DNA of 64,000 nt. Source: Kitasatospora setae KM-6054 (GTDB lineage Bacteria > Actinomycetota > Actinomycetes > Streptomycetales > Streptomycetaceae). Numbering within the stretch: position 1 is the stretch's first letter; each line of letters opens with the position of its first letter. Below are positions 12,139 through 18,287 of this stretch, one piece after another. The stretch spans positions 3,472,001-3,536,000 of the forward strand of contig NC_016109.1 in assembly GCF_000269985.1 (NCBI RefSeq). Reading direction: 5' to 3'. The notes under the pieces were generated by a model. The model was given only the letters and a program-made list of their open reading frames with translations, was not told the origin of the DNA and did no database searches. Position numbers and translations under genes: made by a program.

Positions 12139-13755
12139 ATGACGGACGACCAGATCCCGGTGGAACCGCCGGCCGCCCCCGCCGAGGGCCGCCCGGCGCT
12201 CACCCGCTCCTCCCGGCACCGGGTGGTGGCGGGCGTGTGCGGCGGCCTGGGCCGCTACCTGGACATCGACCCGGTGGTGTTCCGGGTGGTGATCGCGGTG
12301 CTCGGCCTGACCGGCGGGCTCGGGCTGTTCCTGTACGGGCTGGCCTGGCTGGTGGTGCCGCGGGAGGCGGCGGACGGCGAGGGCGGCCGCACCGAGCTGC
12401 AGCGGGTGCTGACCGGCCGGGTGGACGGCCAGTCGATCGGCGCGGTGCTGCTGACCGTGATCGGCACCGGGGTGTTCTTCTCCTCGATGGGCGACGGCGG
12501 GCAGCTGTTCCCGCTGCTGCTGCTGGCCGCGCTGGTGTTCCTGGCGCTGCGCTACGACCCGGAGCGGCGGCGCCGCTTCGACGGCGGCGACCCGCCGCCG
12601 CCCCCGCCGCCCGGCCCGCGGGACCGGCTGGAGGAGGGCGGCCCGTTCGCGGACTGGAAGACCTGGAGCGAGACGGTCGGCCGCGACCTGCGCGGCAGTT
12701 GGAAGAGCCGCAGCGCGGAGCTGCACGAGCGGATGGCGGCCTGGCACGGCGAGCAGGCGGCGGGCGGTTCCGCCGCCCGTCCCGGTGCCGGTGCCGCCCG
12801 TCCCGACGGCACCGGTGTCGACGGTGCCGGGCAGCGGCCCGCGGACACCCCGCCGGTCGGCCCGTCCGGCTACCTGTGGGACCCGCGGCACCCGGAGCGC
12901 GACCCGTACGGCGGGGCCGGCCCGGTGCCGCCGGGGGCGCCCGCGCAGCCGTGGTGGCAGCGCGCCGACCTGCCGGAGGGCGACCCGCTGCGCAAGGAGC
13001 CGCGCGAGGAGACCTACCAGGACCGGATGGAGCGCCGGATGGCGGACTACCGGGCCAAGGCCGGGGAGCGCCAGCAGGCGCAGCGCGAGGCGATGGAGCG
13101 GCACCGGGCGAGCATGGAGCGGCACCGCGAGTGGAAGGCCCGCCGGAGGGCGGAGCGCGGCAGCTCGGTGCTGGGCGCGTCGGCGGTGCTGGTCGCGCTG
13201 GGCTCGGCCTGGGCGGTGGCGGCGGCCGGCCACGGGGAGCAGCGCTGGTCGACGGTGCTGGCGGTGGCGCTGCTGCCGCTGGGCCTGGCGATGCTGGTCA
13301 GCGCCCGCTGGGGGCGCACCCGCGGGCTGACCTTCCTGTCGCTGCTGGTGACGGCGGCCCTGGCGGTGTCGGCCGGCACCTCGGCGACGGTCGCGGACAG
13401 CACCGGCGACCGGACCTGGACGGTGGCCGCCGCGTCCGACCTGCGGGAGCGGTACACGCTCGGCTTCGGCGAGGCGAACCTCGACCTGTCGGCGGTGGAC
13501 CCGGGCGGCGGCACGGCCGGCACCTCGCTGCGGGTCGCCGCGGGCGACGCCCGGGTGACCGTGCCGTCCGGGGTGGAGCTGCGGCTGAAGCTGCGCGACG
13601 GCGCGGGCGAGGTCCGGCTGCCGGACGGCCAGCGGTTCAGCGGGCCGTTCGTGAACGAGGACGTGGTGATCGAGGTCCCGGACGGCCGGCCGTCCAAGGG
13701 GGCACTGGAACTGACGGTGACGGTGGGCGCCGGGAACATCGAGGTGGTGCGGTGA
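12139..13755 (+). CDS. PspC and LiaF-like domain membrane protein
   Basis: Encodes 538 residues; the ATG at 12139 was chosen because the PspC domain follows directly. PspC (about 20-80, SSRHRVVAGVCGGLGRYL) is followed by a second hydrophobic pair near 95-140. A long Arg/Glu/Gln-rich, probably cytoplasmic linker (about 150-340) comes next, then two to three membrane helices (345-420). The extracytoplasmic beta-rich C-terminus carries FGEANLDLSAVD and GVELRLKLRDGAGEV motifs, like the cell-wall-antibiotic response domain of LiaF/VraT. It is divergent from the PspC kinase pair, so it is probably its regulator, sensor or target. The assignment of the last domain is by motif resemblance. Confidence 0.8.
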   Translation: MTDDQIPVEPPAAPAEGRPALTRSSRHRVVAGVCGGLGRYLDIDPVVFRVVIAVLGLTGGLGLFLYGLAWLVVPREAADGEGGRTELQRVLTGRVDGQSIGAVLLTVIGTGVFFSSMGDGGQLFPLLLLAALVFLALRYDPERRRRFDGGDPPPPPPPGPRDRLEEGGPFADWKTWSETVGRDLRGSWKSRSAELHERMAAWHGEQAAGGSAARPGAGAARPDGTGVDGAGQRPADTPPVGPSGYLWDPRHPERDPYGGAGPVPPGAPAQPWWQRADLPEGDPLRKEPREETYQDRMERRMADYRAKAGERQQAQREAMERHRASMERHREWKARRRAERGSSVLGASAVLVALGSAWAVAAAGHGEQRWSTVLAVALLPLGLAMLVSARWGRTRGLTFLSLLVTAALAVSAGTSATVADSTGDRTWTVAAASDLRERYTLGFGEANLDLSAVDPGGGTAGTSLRVAAGDARVTVPSGVELRLKLRDGAGEVRLPDGQRFSGPFVNEDVVIEVPDGRPSKGALELTVTVGAGNIEVVR

Positions 13756-13985
13756 TGAGGAAGCATCGGTTCGACGTCTACGCGTTGGTCGCGGGCGGGC
13801 TGTTCAGCGCGCTGGCGGTGCTGTACCTGGTGGCCTCGCTGAACGACCGCGAGGTGAACAGCCGCTTCGTGCTGCCGCTGACCTTCATCGTGCTCGGCGC
13901 GGGCGGCCTGGCCGGCGCCCTGGTGGCGGCCTCCCGGCGCGGCCGGGGCGGCGCCCGGGACGACGGGCACCGCCTGGACGACTAG
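13755..13985 (+). CDS. small two-helix membrane protein
   Basis: A 76-residue protein with two membrane helices (about 8-28 and 38-60) and a basic, then acidic C-terminal tail. Its ATG overlaps the stop of the PspC/LiaF-like gene (TGATG at 13753-13757), so it is coupled to it. No family recognised; it may be an accessory subunit of the upstream sensor. Confidence 0.75.
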   Translation: MRKHRFDVYALVAGGLFSALAVLYLVASLNDREVNSRFVLPLTFIVLGAGGLAGALVAASRRGRGGARDDGHRLDD

Positions 13986-14001
13986 GAGTCCGCGCGGGGC
14001 G

Positions 14002-14029
14002 GGGGCGGGGCCGGTGGCCCCGCCCCTTT
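14002..14029 (+). terminator. terminator of PspC operon
   Basis: A 9-bp GC stem (14002-14010 with 14018-14026) with a 7-base loop is followed by TTTC, 17 bases after the stop of the small membrane protein. Confidence 0.8.
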
Positions 14030-14280
14030 CGCGTGTCCGGGCGGGCCCGCTGTCCGGTGTCGGACGGTCCGGTTCACGACAGCCGGATGCCCTTCCGGGC
14101 CGCCCCGGAACGGACGAAGCTGGTGACCGCCGCCAGGGAGACCGGGCGGCCCGCCGGAACCGGGCTCCCCCACGGGGCGCCCGGCAGGGGCCTGCTGGCC
14201 CCTCGTCAGGCCGCTCCCGTGCGAGCGGTGCGCCGCCGCTCCCGTCGTCCTTCCCGAACCCGCCGCAAGGGGATACCGCC

Positions 14281-15537
14281 ATGCCTTCTTCCCGCCGCAC
14301 CAGGCTCCTCGGAACGTTCGCCCTGACCGCCGGGCTCACCGCCTCGTCCTGCGTCCTGGCCACCGTGGACGCGTCGGCCGCCTCGGTGGCGAACTGGGAC
14401 CGGGTCGCCCAGTGCGAGAGCAGCGGGAACTGGAGCATCAACACCAACAACGGCCTGTACGGCGGGCTCCAGTTCGACCTGCCGACCTGGCGGGCGTACG
14501 GCGGCACCCAGTACGCCGCGTACCCGCACCAGGCCACCAAGCAGCAGCAGATCCTGATCGCCGAGAAGGTCCTGAACGGCCCGCAGGGCGCCGGCGCCTG
14601 GCCGCAGTGCGGCGGTCCGCTGGTCGGCGACCACACCAACCCGTACCCGTCGGCGCCGCCGACGCCGCCGGCCTCCTCGGGCACCGGCAGCGGCGGGGTG
14701 GCGGCCTCGGCCACCGACACCACCGTGCACCTGGAGATCATCGGCTCCGACGGCGCGATGTACACCAACGACGGCAACTACACCACCGGTGCCTGGTCGA
14801 CCTGGACCAAGCTGGACAACGCCAACCTCAAGTCCGTCAGCGCGGCCGCGATCGGGGGCGTCAGCCACGTCTTCGCGGTGGCCAACGACGGCCGCGTCTA
14901 CACCCGCGACGCCAACTACACCACCGGCACCTGGAGCGACTGGGCCGAGGTCCCCGGCGGCGCGGGCGGGGCGAAGGCCGTGATGGCGACCGCGACCGGG
15001 AACACCGTGCACCTGGAGATCATCGGCTCCGACGGCGCGATGTACACCAACGACGCCAACTACACCACCGGCACCTGGGGCGTCTGGACCAGGATGGACG
15101 GCGCGAACCTCAAGTCCCTGGCCGGCGTGGCGATCGGCAACGTCAGCCACGTCTTCGCGGTCAGCGAGGACGGCCGCGTCTACAGCCGCGACGCCGACTA
15201 CGGCGCCGGCACCTGGACCGGCTGGGCCGAGGTCCCCGGCGGCGCGAGCGGCGCCAAGGGCATCACCGCCACCGCGACCGGCACCACCGCGCACCTGGAG
15301 ATCATCGGCTCCGACGGCGCGATGTACAACAACGACGCCAACTACACCACCGGCACCTGGTCGACCTGGACCAAGATGGACAGCGCCAACCTCAAGTCCC
15401 TGGCCAGCGTGGCGATCGGCAACGTCAACCACGTCTTCGCGGTGGCCGCCGACGGCCACGTCTACACCCGCGACGCCAACTACACCACCGGCACCTGGAG
15501 CAACTGGGCCGAGGTCCCCGGCGGCGCGAGCGCCTGA
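14281..15537 (+). CDS. secreted Rpf-like transglycosylase with six-repeat domain
   Basis: Encodes 418 residues with a Sec signal peptide (cleavage near 31-35). The resuscitation-promoting-factor/transglycosylase fold spans about 36-115. It starts NWDRVAQCESSGNW, with the predicted catalytic E46 and a probable C45-C110 disulfide. Enzymes of this family cut peptidoglycan glycan strands during growth or spore germination. After a Pro-rich linker (121-136), residues 148-418 are six repeats of about 45 residues alternating two subtypes. Each carries a Y-x-x-G-x-W core, resembling blades of a tachylectin/PLL-type beta-propeller. The repeat domain is almost identical to that of the next gene. No cyclic-di-AMP riboswitch core is visible in the 255-base leader, unlike several Streptomyces rpf genes. 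Confidence 0.88.
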   Translation: MPSSRRTRLLGTFALTAGLTASSCVLATVDASAASVANWDRVAQCESSGNWSINTNNGLYGGLQFDLPTWRAYGGTQYAAYPHQATKQQQILIAEKVLNGPQGAGAWPQCGGPLVGDHTNPYPSAPPTPPASSGTGSGGVAASATDTTVHLEIIGSDGAMYTNDGNYTTGAWSTWTKLDNANLKSVSAAAIGGVSHVFAVANDGRVYTRDANYTTGTWSDWAEVPGGAGGAKAVMATATGNTVHLEIIGSDGAMYTNDANYTTGTWGVWTRMDGANLKSLAGVAIGNVSHVFAVSEDGRVYSRDADYGAGTWTGWAEVPGGASGAKGITATATGTTAHLEIIGSDGAMYNNDANYTTGTWSTWTKMDSANLKSLASVAIGNVNHVFAVAADGHVYTRDANYTTGTWSNWAEVPGGASA

Positions 15538-15760
15538 CCCGGCGCCCCGCCCGACCGCCCGGCCCCGCCCGACCGCCCGTCCACCTGCCTTCCTGTCACC
15601 ACCCACGCCTGCCACCGGCCCCGCCTGTCGCCGGCCGCACCCGGCGGCGCCGCGCCCCCGCCCCCGCGGGCGGCCGCAGCGCGCCGGGGCCGCCCGACAG
15701 CCGCGTCCCGGACCTCCGGCACGGCCCTTCGACTTCCCTTCTGCCACGAGGAGTTCCGCC

Positions 15761-17182
15761 ATGTCCGCCGTCCGTACCTCCAAGGCCCTGCGCACCGCCC
15801 TGGCCGCCGCCATCGCCCTCTCCGGCGCGATCGCCACCACCGCCGTCACGGTCGCCACCGCGACCACCGCGCAGGCCGCCTCCTCGGTCGACGGCCAGAT
15901 CACCCGCGGCGAGGTGATCCAGCGCGCCCAGTACTGGTACGGCAAGACCATCGCCTACAACCAGGGCGCCACCTACCCGGACTCCTCCGGCCGCGCCTAC
16001 CGCACCGACTGCTCCGGCTACGTCTCGATGGCCTGGCACCTCGGCGCCAGCCCCAGCACCCAGGGCCTGCCCGGCTACGCCACCGAGATCCCGCGCAGCC
16101 AGCTCAAGGCGGGCGACATCCTGAACAGCTTCTACGACCACGTGATCCTGTTCGAGAAGTGGGACGACGCCGCGCACACCACCTTCTCCTACTACTCGTT
16201 CGGCTCGACCCCGGTGAAGCACCGCACCGGCATCTCGATCAACGCCGCGACCTTCGACTCGCACCCCAACGGCGACTACAAGGCCTACCGCTACAACAAG
16301 ATCGTCGACGACACCCCGTCGACCACGGCGGCGGGCACCGCGCACGTGGAGATCATCGGCTCGGACGGCGCGATGTACAACAACGACGCCAACTACACCA
16401 CCGGCACCTGGAGCGTGTGGTCGCAGATGGACAGCGCGAGCCTGACGTACCTGGCCAGCGCCTCCACCGGGAACACCTCGCACTACTACGCGGTGGCCGC
16501 CGACGGCGGGCTCTACACCCGGGACGCCGACTACGCGGCCGGCACCTGGAGCGACTGGGCCCCCGTCCCGGGCGGTGCGAGCGGCGCCAAGGGCCTCACC
16601 GCCACCGCGACCGGCAACACCGTCCACCTGGAAATCATCGGCTCGGACGGCGCGATGTACAACAACGACGCCAACTACACCACCGGCACCTGGGGCAGCT
16701 GGACCAAGATGGACAGCGCCAACCTCACCCACCTGGCCAGTGCCACCACCGGGAACACCTCGCACTACTACGCGGTGGCCACCGACGGCCACGTCTACAC
16801 CCGCGACGCCAACTACACCACCGGCACCTGGAGCAACTGGGCCGAGGTCCCCGGCGGGGCCGGCGGTGCCAAGGGCCTCACCGCCACCGCGACCGGCAAC
16901 ACCGTCCACCTGGAAATCATCGGCTCGGACGGCGCGATGTACAACAACGACGCCAACTACACCACCGGCACCTGGTCGACCTGGACCAAGCTGGACAGCG
17001 CCAACCTCAAGTCCCTGGCCAGCACCACCACCGGCAGCACCGCCCACTACTACGCGGTCGCCAACGACGGCGCGGTCTACACCCGTGACGCCGACTACAC
17101 CACCGGCACCTGGACCGACTGGGTCGAGGTCCCCGGCGGCGCCGGCGGCGCCAAGGGCATCACCGCCACGGCCACCGGCTGA
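15761..17182 (+). CDS. secreted NlpC/P60-like protein with six-repeat domain
   Basis: Encodes 473 residues with a signal peptide ending near AQA-A (39/40). The NlpC/P60-like papain fold (about 48-185) has the nucleophile motif TDCSGYVSMAW (C84) and a distant His in YDHVILFEKW (H127). These are consistent with a peptidoglycan peptidase or amidase, although the third polar residue is not obvious. Residues 194-473 form six repeats with the Y-x-x-G-x-W core, about 85-95% alike to those of the upstream Rpf-like gene. The shared domain probably binds a wall glycan or forms a propeller scaffold. A GAGGAG ribosome site precedes the ATG. It ends 11 bases before a strong bidirectional terminator. Confidence 0.85.
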   Translation: MSAVRTSKALRTALAAAIALSGAIATTAVTVATATTAQAASSVDGQITRGEVIQRAQYWYGKTIAYNQGATYPDSSGRAYRTDCSGYVSMAWHLGASPSTQGLPGYATEIPRSQLKAGDILNSFYDHVILFEKWDDAAHTTFSYYSFGSTPVKHRTGISINAATFDSHPNGDYKAYRYNKIVDDTPSTTAAGTAHVEIIGSDGAMYNNDANYTTGTWSVWSQMDSASLTYLASASTGNTSHYYAVAADGGLYTRDADYAAGTWSDWAPVPGGASGAKGLTATATGNTVHLEIIGSDGAMYNNDANYTTGTWGSWTKMDSANLTHLASATTGNTSHYYAVATDGHVYTRDANYTTGTWSNWAEVPGGAGGAKGLTATATGNTVHLEIIGSDGAMYNNDANYTTGTWSTWTKLDSANLKSLASTTTGSTAHYYAVANDGAVYTRDADYTTGTWTDWVEVPGGAGGAKGITATATG

Positions 17183-17193
17183 CGGTCCGACCT

Positions 17194-17240
17194 CCGAGGG
17201 GCACCCGCCCGGCCGCACCGGCCCGGCGGGTGCCCCTCGG
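17194..17240. terminator. strong bidirectional terminator
   Basis: A perfect 16-bp inverted repeat (17194-17209 with 17225-17240) with a 15-base loop that can pair internally. It separates the convergent NlpC/P60-like and DoxX-Rieske genes. Confidence 0.9.
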
Positions 17241-17243
17241 GCG

Positions 17244-18287
17244 TCAGGCCTTCTGCTGCGGGCCGAGCTCCAGCTGGTCGCCGTTCCTGGTGACGCCGTA
17301 CTTCGGCAGCGGCTTCACCGCCGGGCCGGTGATCACGGCGCCGGTCGCGGCGTCGAACTCGGAGCCGTGGCAGGGGCAGTAGAGCTTGCCGTCCTTGGGC
17401 GGGTTGACCGCGCAGCCGGAGTGGGTGCAGACCGAGGAGAGGCCCGCGTACTGCCCGGCGGCGGGCTGGACGATGAAGACGGCGTCGCCGTTGGCCGGGT
17501 CCTTGACCGTGGCGGAGCCGCCGACCGGGACCTGCGCGGCGGGCACCGAGGGGCCGGGCTGCGGGACGGGGCTGGTGGCGCCGCCGCCGGTGGCGGTGGC
17601 GGGCGCGGTGTCGTCCCGGCCGAAGCTGGCGGTGAGCGAGCCGGAGAGCAGGCCGGCGCCGCCGAGCGCGACGGCCGCGATGCCGCCGTCGAGCAGCGCG
17701 CGGCGGCGGACCGCGTCCTCGGCGAGGCCGCGGGCCCGGTCGCGGGCGGCCCGGGCGGCGAGGTAGCCGTCGACCGACAGGTAGGGGGTGCCGGCCAGCA
17801 GCAGCGGCGTCCAGGCCATCAGGTAGGCCAGGTCGTTGCCCAGGTAGTACGGGGTGGTGTGGAAGCTCACGGTCAGCCAGAGCGAGGCGGAGAGCAGCGC
17901 GCCGCCGAGCGCGGCGACCCGGCCCCACAGGCCGAACAGGGTGCCGAGGCCGACGGCGAGCTCGCCGAAGGCGATCAGCAGGCCGAAGAAGGTCGGCGCG
18001 TCGAGGGCCGGGCCGAGCGCCCAGCCGAGCGGGCTGGTGGCCTTGGCGGCCCGGGTCTGGGAGTAGAACGAGGCGGCGTCGCCGGCGCCGGCCAGGTAGT
18101 GCGCGTCGGAGAGCTTGTCGAAGGCGGCGTAGACGAAGGTCACGCCGAGGAACAGCCGCAGCGGCAGCAGCGCGAAGCGCGAGCCCAGCGCCTTCCACGC
18201 GCCGATCCGGCGGCCCGTTCCGCCGCCCGTCCCCCCGCCCGTCCCGTCCGTCCCGCCGCCGGTCGTGCTGCCGGTCCCCGTCGCCAT
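17244..18287 (-). CDS. DoxX-Rieske fusion protein
   Basis: Encodes 347 residues from the ATG at 18285-18287; longer frames run into non-conserved sequence. The N-terminal Gly/Thr-rich tail is followed by a DoxX-type four-helix membrane domain (about 35-190). A second membrane or signal-like segment comes near 225, then a C-terminal Rieske domain with CTHSGC and CPCHGSEF, the four ligands (C, H, C, H) of a [2Fe-2S] cluster. DoxX proteins couple quinone or thiol redox chemistry to the membrane, and the Rieske domain probably passes electrons outside the membrane. The fusion implies one electron path in one polypeptide. Substrate unknown. It is transcribed in the same direction as guaA, 139 bases downstream. 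Confidence 0.85.
   Translation of the reverse strand: MATGTGSTTGGGTDGTGGGTGGGTGRRIGAWKALGSRFALLPLRLFLGVTFVYAAFDKLSDAHYLAGAGDAASFYSQTRAAKATSPLGWALGPALDAPTFFGLLIAFGELAVGLGTLFGLWGRVAALGGALLSASLWLTVSFHTTPYYLGNDLAYLMAWTPLLLAGTPYLSVDGYLAARAARDRARGLAEDAVRRRALLDGGIAAVALGGAGLLSGSLTASFGRDDTAPATATGGGATSPVPQPGPSVPAAQVPVGGSATVKDPANGDAVFIVQPAAGQYAGLSSVCTHSGCAVNPPKDGKLYCPCHGSEFDAATGAVITGPAVKPLPKYGVTRNGDQLELGPQQKA

Follow-up and report, generated by a model that had tools for sequence, protein, structure and literature searches.

Why should two adjacent genes that encode unlike cell-wall enzymes end in the same kind of repeat module? The question is raised by a 64,000-nucleotide (nt) stretch of Kitasatospora setae KM-6054 (NC_016109.1, positions 3,472,001 to 3,536,000; hereafter the window), in which two genes, here called A and B, lie in tandem on the + strand, 223 nt apart, behind a conserved leader. 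We consider it fairly probable that they form a wall-lytic cassette, in which lectins direct two complementary cutters to the same surface glycan, under common leader control. What the sequences show are the domains, the predicted fold, the sharing of modules, the ends of copied tracts and the conservation of the leader.

We begin with the enzymes. Gene A (14281..15537, + strand) encodes a secreted Rpf-type protein of 418 amino acids (aa), with a signal peptide recognised by eye and a six-bladed lectin-like propeller. Its residues 34-110 (14380..14610, + strand) form the Rpf catalytic domain, which matched Pfam Transglycosylas (PF06737) with an E-value of 9.6e-32 and 109.9 bits against a cut-off of 27, so that gene A belongs to this family. 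The domain contains the motif CESSGNW, whose glutamate has a catalytic role. Gene B (15761..17182, + strand) encodes 473 aa, again with a signal peptide by eye and a six-bladed lectin-like propeller, and residues 41-182 (15881..16306, + strand) form an NlpC/P60-like catalytic domain. No convincing Pfam domain was found in gene B (P0002), and PF00877 was not matched at E<=1. Of the 23 rows of alignment A4, which holds relatives of gene B, 14 matched PF00877 at E<=1, with a best value of 4.8e-4; gene B itself was not one of the 14. A PDB search with gene B reached NlpC/P60 chains (CwlO, Spr and others) only at E 0.26-0.6; two designed 'pizza' propellers ranked above these chains and look like chance matches. 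The candidate triad C84, H127 and H139 is invariant in all eight aligned relatives (alignment A3), and its spacing appears to resemble that of the Spr triad. Because gene B itself does not reach the PF00877 cut-off, we label it 'NlpC/P60-like' only: it appears to be a divergent NlpC/P60-like protein whose likeness to the family is weak. A preliminary description, made from the sequence alone, had placed an Rpf-like enzyme beside an NlpC/P60-like one, and this holds for A through PF06737 and for B through the weak PF00877 matches of its relatives. A and B probably cut different cell-wall bonds.

Each protein closes with six repeats. A 65-nt core occurs in 12 copies, spaced 138 or 144 nt apart within a gene, and in both genes the 138- and 144-nt repeats pair into 282-nt two-blade units, in agreement with the two alternating subtypes proposed earlier. 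Repeat analysis and lectin matches place the module of gene A at 14701..15534, and repeat analysis and Foldseek place that of gene B at 16328..17179, both on the + strand and both made of three two-blade units. The two-blade DNA units are 83-89% alike within one gene and 76-87% alike between A and B, which bears out the claim that repeat DNA is similar within and between the genes. The term 'near-identical' was too strong for the modules as wholes, which share 72% protein identity over 268 aa and 81.7% DNA identity over 810 nt.

The fold had been set beforehand as a test, and a closed six-bladed propeller was predicted. The AlphaFold model of gene A (m3e1237f3a75b) has a mean predicted local distance difference test score (pLDDT) of 78.9, with propeller blocks at 88-96 and the last block at 74; that of gene B (m9945a4aa7a60) has a mean pLDDT of 86.1 and a predicted template modelling score of 0.64. 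Taking both together, the propeller blocks score 87-96, the last block excepted. The gene B model matched kelch and designed six-bladed propellers with Z up to 28.9 (root-mean-square deviation 2.6, 272 residues), and its best Foldseek matches were Photorhabdus PHL/PLL lectins (E 1.5e-12). These whole-model searches returned propeller matches only, the catalytic domain being hidden behind the propeller. By sequence, the nearest solved protein was the CV39L lectin (PDB 6gxs, E 1.6e-5), the sole PDB match at E<=1 in that search, and the NCBIfam CV39L lectin model matched module A at E 2.3e-14 and 53.2 bits, under its cut-off of 350. Of the tachylectin/PLL-type propeller suggested at first, the PLL type thus stands, and both sequence and fold point to the CV39L/PLL family. 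The blade number differs, however: PLL lectins have seven blades, and here we count six repeats and a six-bladed model. For this reason we file the A and B modules as predicted PLL-type and lectin-like, not as members of the CV39L/PLL family.

What would such an arrangement do? A glycan cutter and a peptide cutter bear one kind of lectin-like module, and co-targeting to one glycan is therefore the simplest meaning. In the mechanism that we propose, both secreted proteins would act on the wall, gene A (Rpf type) cutting glycan strands and gene B (NlpC/P60-like) cutting stem peptides. Both PLL-type propellers, which are of one subfamily, would bind the same surface glycan, and through this common glycan both bonds would be cut at one wall site. 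A structured leader ahead of gene A would control the cassette. The module would be exchangeable across actinobacteria. It would belong to one of several families, of which many are propeller or FG-GAP repeats, and would often be common within a cassette and different between cassettes. We infer the enzyme activities, the sugar binding, the common target, the transcription and function of the leader, and the own wall as the usual substrate, in growth, branching or germination. There is a precedent in mycobacteria, where RipA and RpfB are reported to act in synergy (PMC2262848).

If the module served such a purpose, where else would it occur? In the own genome (8.78 Mb, one contig), the PLL-type propeller was found on three proteins, namely A, B and a distant paralogue at G000:C1:4322129-4323556, about 833 kb from the window pair and wall-hydrolase-like as they are. 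A tblastn search of this genome with a 190-aa piece of module B at E<=10 gave ten stretches, seven of them within these three genes; the remaining three (E 9e-4 to 0.024) were inspected as open reading frames only. So far as this search shows, unrelated proteins of the genome do not commonly carry the module, which answers a check raised by the preliminary description.

Across the genus, 61 Kitasatospora genomes yielded 40 loci picked for hydrolase or propeller matches (among the matches listed), mostly for two adjoining ones. In many of these loci, neighbouring unlike enzymes carry nearly the same C-terminal modules, with identities of 100% over 261 aa (L091), 99.7% over 341 aa (L080), 98.6% over 280 aa (L077) and 99.2% over 257 aa (L085). 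The module families vary by locus and include PLL propellers, FG-GAP repeats, DUF346 and LGFP, besides others that no library names convincingly. One locus, L102 (247-7379), holds tandem trypsin-like proteins with a PLL-type propeller that look UmbA-like by eye.

For a sample free of adjacency, named genomes were scanned with the NlpC domain alone and the best 80 of 198 relatives were taken; a module was at least 150 aa long, and sharing meant at least 30% identity over at least 100 aa. Modules were present in 55 of the 80 loci, and a neighbour with the same module in 32 of the 55 (29 of 51 once the four seed loci are set aside). For 19 of the 32 sharing loci, the neighbour's module was the best match among the 80 loci, same-organism loci omitted. 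The partner enzymes were Rpf (12 loci), SGNH, DUF1906-like, GH25, GH73, M23, GH43/32-like, Exo_endo_phos and some unnamed ones; over all loci, CHAP is a further partner type. Sharing was seen in Streptomyces, Kitasatospora, Lentzea, Amycolatopsis, Nonomuraea, Kutzneria, Planomonospora, Sphaerisporangium and Umezawaea. Among multi-enzyme loci selected by the leader, modules were shared in 10 of 11 (identities 32.8-98.9%); the eleventh, L297, is too short, L298 was omitted as a duplicate of L113, and L284 is the same as L109, which had already been chosen by adjacency. A scan of the named genomes with the module alignment gave no matches. As far as the sequences go, the window pair is one case of a widespread actinobacterial cassette class, wall-cutters with an exchangeable common tail. 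The common module on two complementary wall cutters is hence confirmed, and the arrangement recurs with other enzymes and other modules. We found no description of matched-module hydrolase cassettes in the open-access literature searched; the earlier suggestion of an undescribed matched pair agrees with this and was too narrow for so widespread a class.

The diversity of modules between loci also fits another use. The genes could be a weapon, a bacteriolytic cassette with exchangeable lectins aimed at the surface glycans of competing actinomycetes. Umbrella-toxin lectins, which come from many propeller families, guide toxins to hypervariable Streptomyces surface polymers and bind teichuronic-acid-like ones (PMC13274773). 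The module family is found on trypsin-like proteins too (L102, by eye; three plasmid matches annotated trypsin-like serine protease), and the own genome has ALF repeats (G000:C1:7481078-7483039, L206), as umbrella toxins do (PMC11062931). Against this, no immunity gene was noticed, although no search aimed at immunity genes was made; Rpf proteins are known for remodelling of the own wall (PMC4255298); and the leader is common to small secreted peptides and one RamC-like lanthipeptide locus (see below), which looks like signalling or development. We regard the weapon as possible but unlikely. It contains the same co-targeting step as the own-wall cassette, and the likelihoods that we attach to the two readings are not exclusive.

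How do neighbouring modules come to be alike? Homologous DNA was mapped for 20 pairs, mostly those of highest identity; 19 were measurable, the window pair being excluded by the filter. It stops no more than 6 nt from the last sense codon in 15 of the 19, and fully identical tracts span 718 nt (L151), 861 nt (L103) and 670 nt (L104). In a protein tree of 30 PLL-type modules labelled by locus, we counted 19 changes, for a minimum of 15 and a shuffle mean of 24.8, and none of 200 shuffles was as low. The low count comes from near-copies: same-locus clustering is seen in G030, G053, G005, G015 and weakly in G056, and is absent in G000 (the window), G004, G030b, G059, G007, G039 and G018. An enzyme-type label gave 14 changes and a locus label 15 on different row sets and without shuffles, so these two figures are not set against each other. 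Overall, the matching of modules within cassettes appears to be maintained in part because module DNA has repeatedly been copied from one neighbouring gene to the other.

For the window modules, the protein tree and the synonymous sites point in different directions. In the tree, one clade (support 96/98) comprises the four modules from the window and from genome G015; within it, B groups with the G015 pair (96/95) and A falls outside. The synonymous distance (dS) is 0.265 between A and B and 0.41-0.55 from either to G015. We therefore make no claim of recent homogenisation for this pair. The dS values from the NG86 method were judged unreliable at this guanine-cytosine content, and the ratio of nonsynonymous to synonymous distance, close to 1 when either A or B is compared with the far paralogue, was left uninterpreted. 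Synteny of the window with G015 was rejected, as no DNA match extends beyond the genes and the second gene of G015 is of CHAP type.

Gene B does contain a recently copied stretch. It lies at 15787..16312 (+ strand), takes in the catalytic half and the greater part of the signal peptide, and recurs in the distant paralogue with 1 mismatch in 526 nt, and the modules of the two proteins share just 50% protein identity; the stretch looks like a recent ectopic copy. At 7883621 lies a third NlpC-like gene, whose catalytic half is nearly identical to that of gene B (16 mismatches in 558 nt) and whose short tail is DUF346-like by eye. Since near-identical catalytic halves stand on unlike tails, catalytic halves have been copied between loci while tails differ. 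In locus coordinates, the NlpC-like genes of this genome whose catalytic DNA is almost identical to that of gene B and whose tails differ are two besides gene B, L011 4618-6057 and L205 3122-3997. The recent duplication or conversion once proposed for the repeats lacks clear support for the module pair; the recent copy seen in gene B is of its catalytic half.

Such copying might be the whole explanation. Gene conversion could homogenise the homologous modules of neighbours without selection for common targeting, so that matching would be a by-product. This would fit the very recent identical tracts in neighbour modules, the neighbours that carry unmatched modules, and the catalytic half copied likewise over about 833 kb, where adjacency plays no part. 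It leaves unexplained, however, why non-homologous and complementary enzymes bear homologous modules at all, and why cassettes of NlpC or CHAP, Rpf and SGNH enzymes stand repeatedly behind one leader. On balance we find it rather improbable that conversion by itself accounts for the matching.

What, then, is the leader? The conserved 5' element (14048..14194, + strand) stops 86 nt short of the start codon (ATG) of gene A and is a candidate cis-regulatory RNA. It is 79% identical over 90 nt to the leader of the distant paralogue. A covariance model, R1, was built on 23 leaders, and the window leader, itself in the training set, scored 97.2 bits (E 4e-17). R1 matched 35 of 42 loci at E<=0.01, including 16 of the 23 whose leader stayed outside training, and 20 of the 80 named NlpC loci, six of which hold training sequences. 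In the genus it was found in 44 of 61 genomes, with 91 sites at E<=1e-6. Beyond the genus but within the same order, 8 of 118 genomes had it, all from one other genus of the family, and NlpC, CHAP or Rpf followed within 3.1 kb at 7 of 10 sites there. A search of 13 loci found no Rfam 15 family at gathering score, and searches at relaxed thresholds gave none that was convincing; a mir-675 match to the leader region (E 0.14) is chance. The Rfam motif NLPC-P60 was absent from the Rfam matches at E<=5 and from the literature searched, and no description of the R1 leader was found in the open-access literature searched.

Downstream DNA was read for 90 distinct R1 sites, the 91st being a terminal duplicate of L104. 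Hydrolases lie within 5.5 kb downstream at 64 of the 90: NlpC, CHAP or Rpf at 62, 58 of them within 1.6 kb, and at the remaining two, by eye, an SLT-like enzyme in one case and a broken NlpC relative in the other. At L274, the leader (51-199) is followed, from 112 nt on, by an NlpC-like gene that lacks most of its catalytic part.

For the structure, RNAalifold on the 23 leaders gave 18 pairs, of which 5 changed on both sides. With 91 leaders aligned to the model, two-sided changes were seen in 14 of the 18 pairs, amounting to 123 cells, where shuffles averaged 51. In a structure-blind alignment, the same 18 pairs were 86.8% paired and had two-sided changes in 11 of 18, or 112 cells; here the shuffle mean was 51 with a maximum of 66 in 200 shuffles, and slides gave 16-67 two-sided cells. 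Kinship among the leader sequences inflates both counts. These data suggest a candidate structured cis-regulatory RNA. The leader could instead act as DNA, either as an operator containing inverted repeats or as a promoter region. Some of the helices correspond to short palindromes of a kind that proteins can recognise, and RNAalifold came out blank on the structure-blind alignment. On the other hand, at most peptide sites about 25-48 nt separate the end of the leader from the start codon, as would be expected of an mRNA leader, and the two-sided changes exceed the shuffles in both alignments, inflated as they are. A DNA element thus seems to us a doubtful reading.

Besides the hydrolases, the leader has a second frequent target. 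A small secreted peptide follows it directly at 64 of the 90 sites, with remnants at 6 more and none at 20, among them the window and the far paralogue. Peptide and hydrolase occur together at 45 sites, the peptide alone at 19, a hydrolase without intact peptide at 19, and neither at 7. The peptide calls comprise 49 pattern matches, one of them judged a remnant, and 16 more made by eye. These peptides have about 33-85 aa; the N-terminus is hydrophobic and often contains A-K-A-A-A-V. Most have W-G, W-G-G, W-E, W-D or W-Q at the C-terminus, and their genes start mostly 25-48 nt past the leader. Examples are L203 7663-7812 (own genome 3918162-3918311), L080 8669 and L103 2145, and at several sites a protein of about 105 aa comes after the peptide. 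Of three peptides compared with NCBIfam, one matched WGxxGxxG only (E 0.023, under the cut-off), and Pfam gave nothing for two. At L204 2853-6135 (own genome 1185852), the R1 leader precedes a RamC-like lanthipeptide synthetase (PF25816) and a possible precursor peptide, with no secreted peptide or hydrolase. The peptide and lanthipeptide targets of the leader speak for signalling or development, and the diversity of modules speaks for conflict. A wider picture can be drawn: a leader RNA not yet listed, present in Kitasatospora and some relatives, may couple a small W-ended signal peptide to a lectin-matched wall-lytic cassette for a strain-specific glycan, as a regulon of self-recognition that decides where, and whose, wall opens. 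We offer this as a long shot, and the window cassette itself has the leader and lacks the small peptide.

Several observations weigh against the co-targeted, leader-controlled cassette. Neighbouring modules are unlike at L096 (35%), L100 (38%), L101 (41%) and L109 (33%). Of the module-bearing NlpC genes in the adjacency-free sample, 23 of 55 have no sharing neighbour in the flanking DNA examined, and for 13 of the 32 sharing loci the best module match lies in another organism. By eye, a GH27-like enzyme (L112) and the trypsin-like proteins of L102 also bear the module, which therefore extends beyond wall hydrolases. In the protein tree, the window modules A and B are not sisters. As to the leader, the covariation term on the 23-leader RNAalifold alignment is small (-0.24), and RNAalifold found no structure in the structure-blind alignment of 91 leaders. 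Finally, A and B lie 223 nt apart, no promoter-like site was found, and the five terminator-like sites are inside the two genes on the opposite strand, so that A and B may be transcribed together or apart.

If the co-targeted cassette is real, it would provide a simple rule for aiming several wall-cutting enzymes together. It would connect the autolysins of streptomycetes, and not toxins alone, with the hypervariable glycans on the surface of these bacteria. Research on Streptomyces development would gain a candidate RNA regulator whose targets are defined, the small secreted peptide foremost. The part played by Rpf and RipA-like enzymes in branching would also become testable through the swap of a single module.

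How does the cassette compare with known systems? The CV39L, PLL and PHL lectins of Chromobacterium and Photorhabdus are alike in sequence (6gxs) and gave the top Foldseek matches, but they have seven blades, whereas the window modules have a predicted six and are fused to wall hydrolases. For the leader, the closest parallel is the cyclic di-AMP riboswitch RF00379, which likewise precedes a wall-lytic gene, controlling an rpf gene in S. coelicolor (PMC5133688). It differs in that its covariance model does not match the R1 leader: RF00379 had no match in window positions 13700-17400 at E<=1 and is present at 6 other places in the same genome. For the enzymes, it is mycobacterial RpfB-RipA, again an Rpf lytic transglycosylase with a peptidoglycan endopeptidase, acting together there (PMC2262848 and PMC4255298). 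That pair relies on direct protein-protein interaction, and the window pair has a common C-terminal module and gene adjacency instead; whether Rpf and RipA-like enzymes have a role in branching is raised as a question in PMC4255298. For the modules, it is Streptomyces UmbA, which also has exchangeable C-terminal lectins from many propeller families that bind surface glycans (PMC11062931 and PMC13274773). UmbA bears an N-terminal inactive trypsin fold that docks UmbB, whereas the window proteins bear predicted wall-cutting domains, Rpf in A and NlpC/P60-like in B. The feature that distinguishes the window cassette from UmbA is the matching of modules within it.

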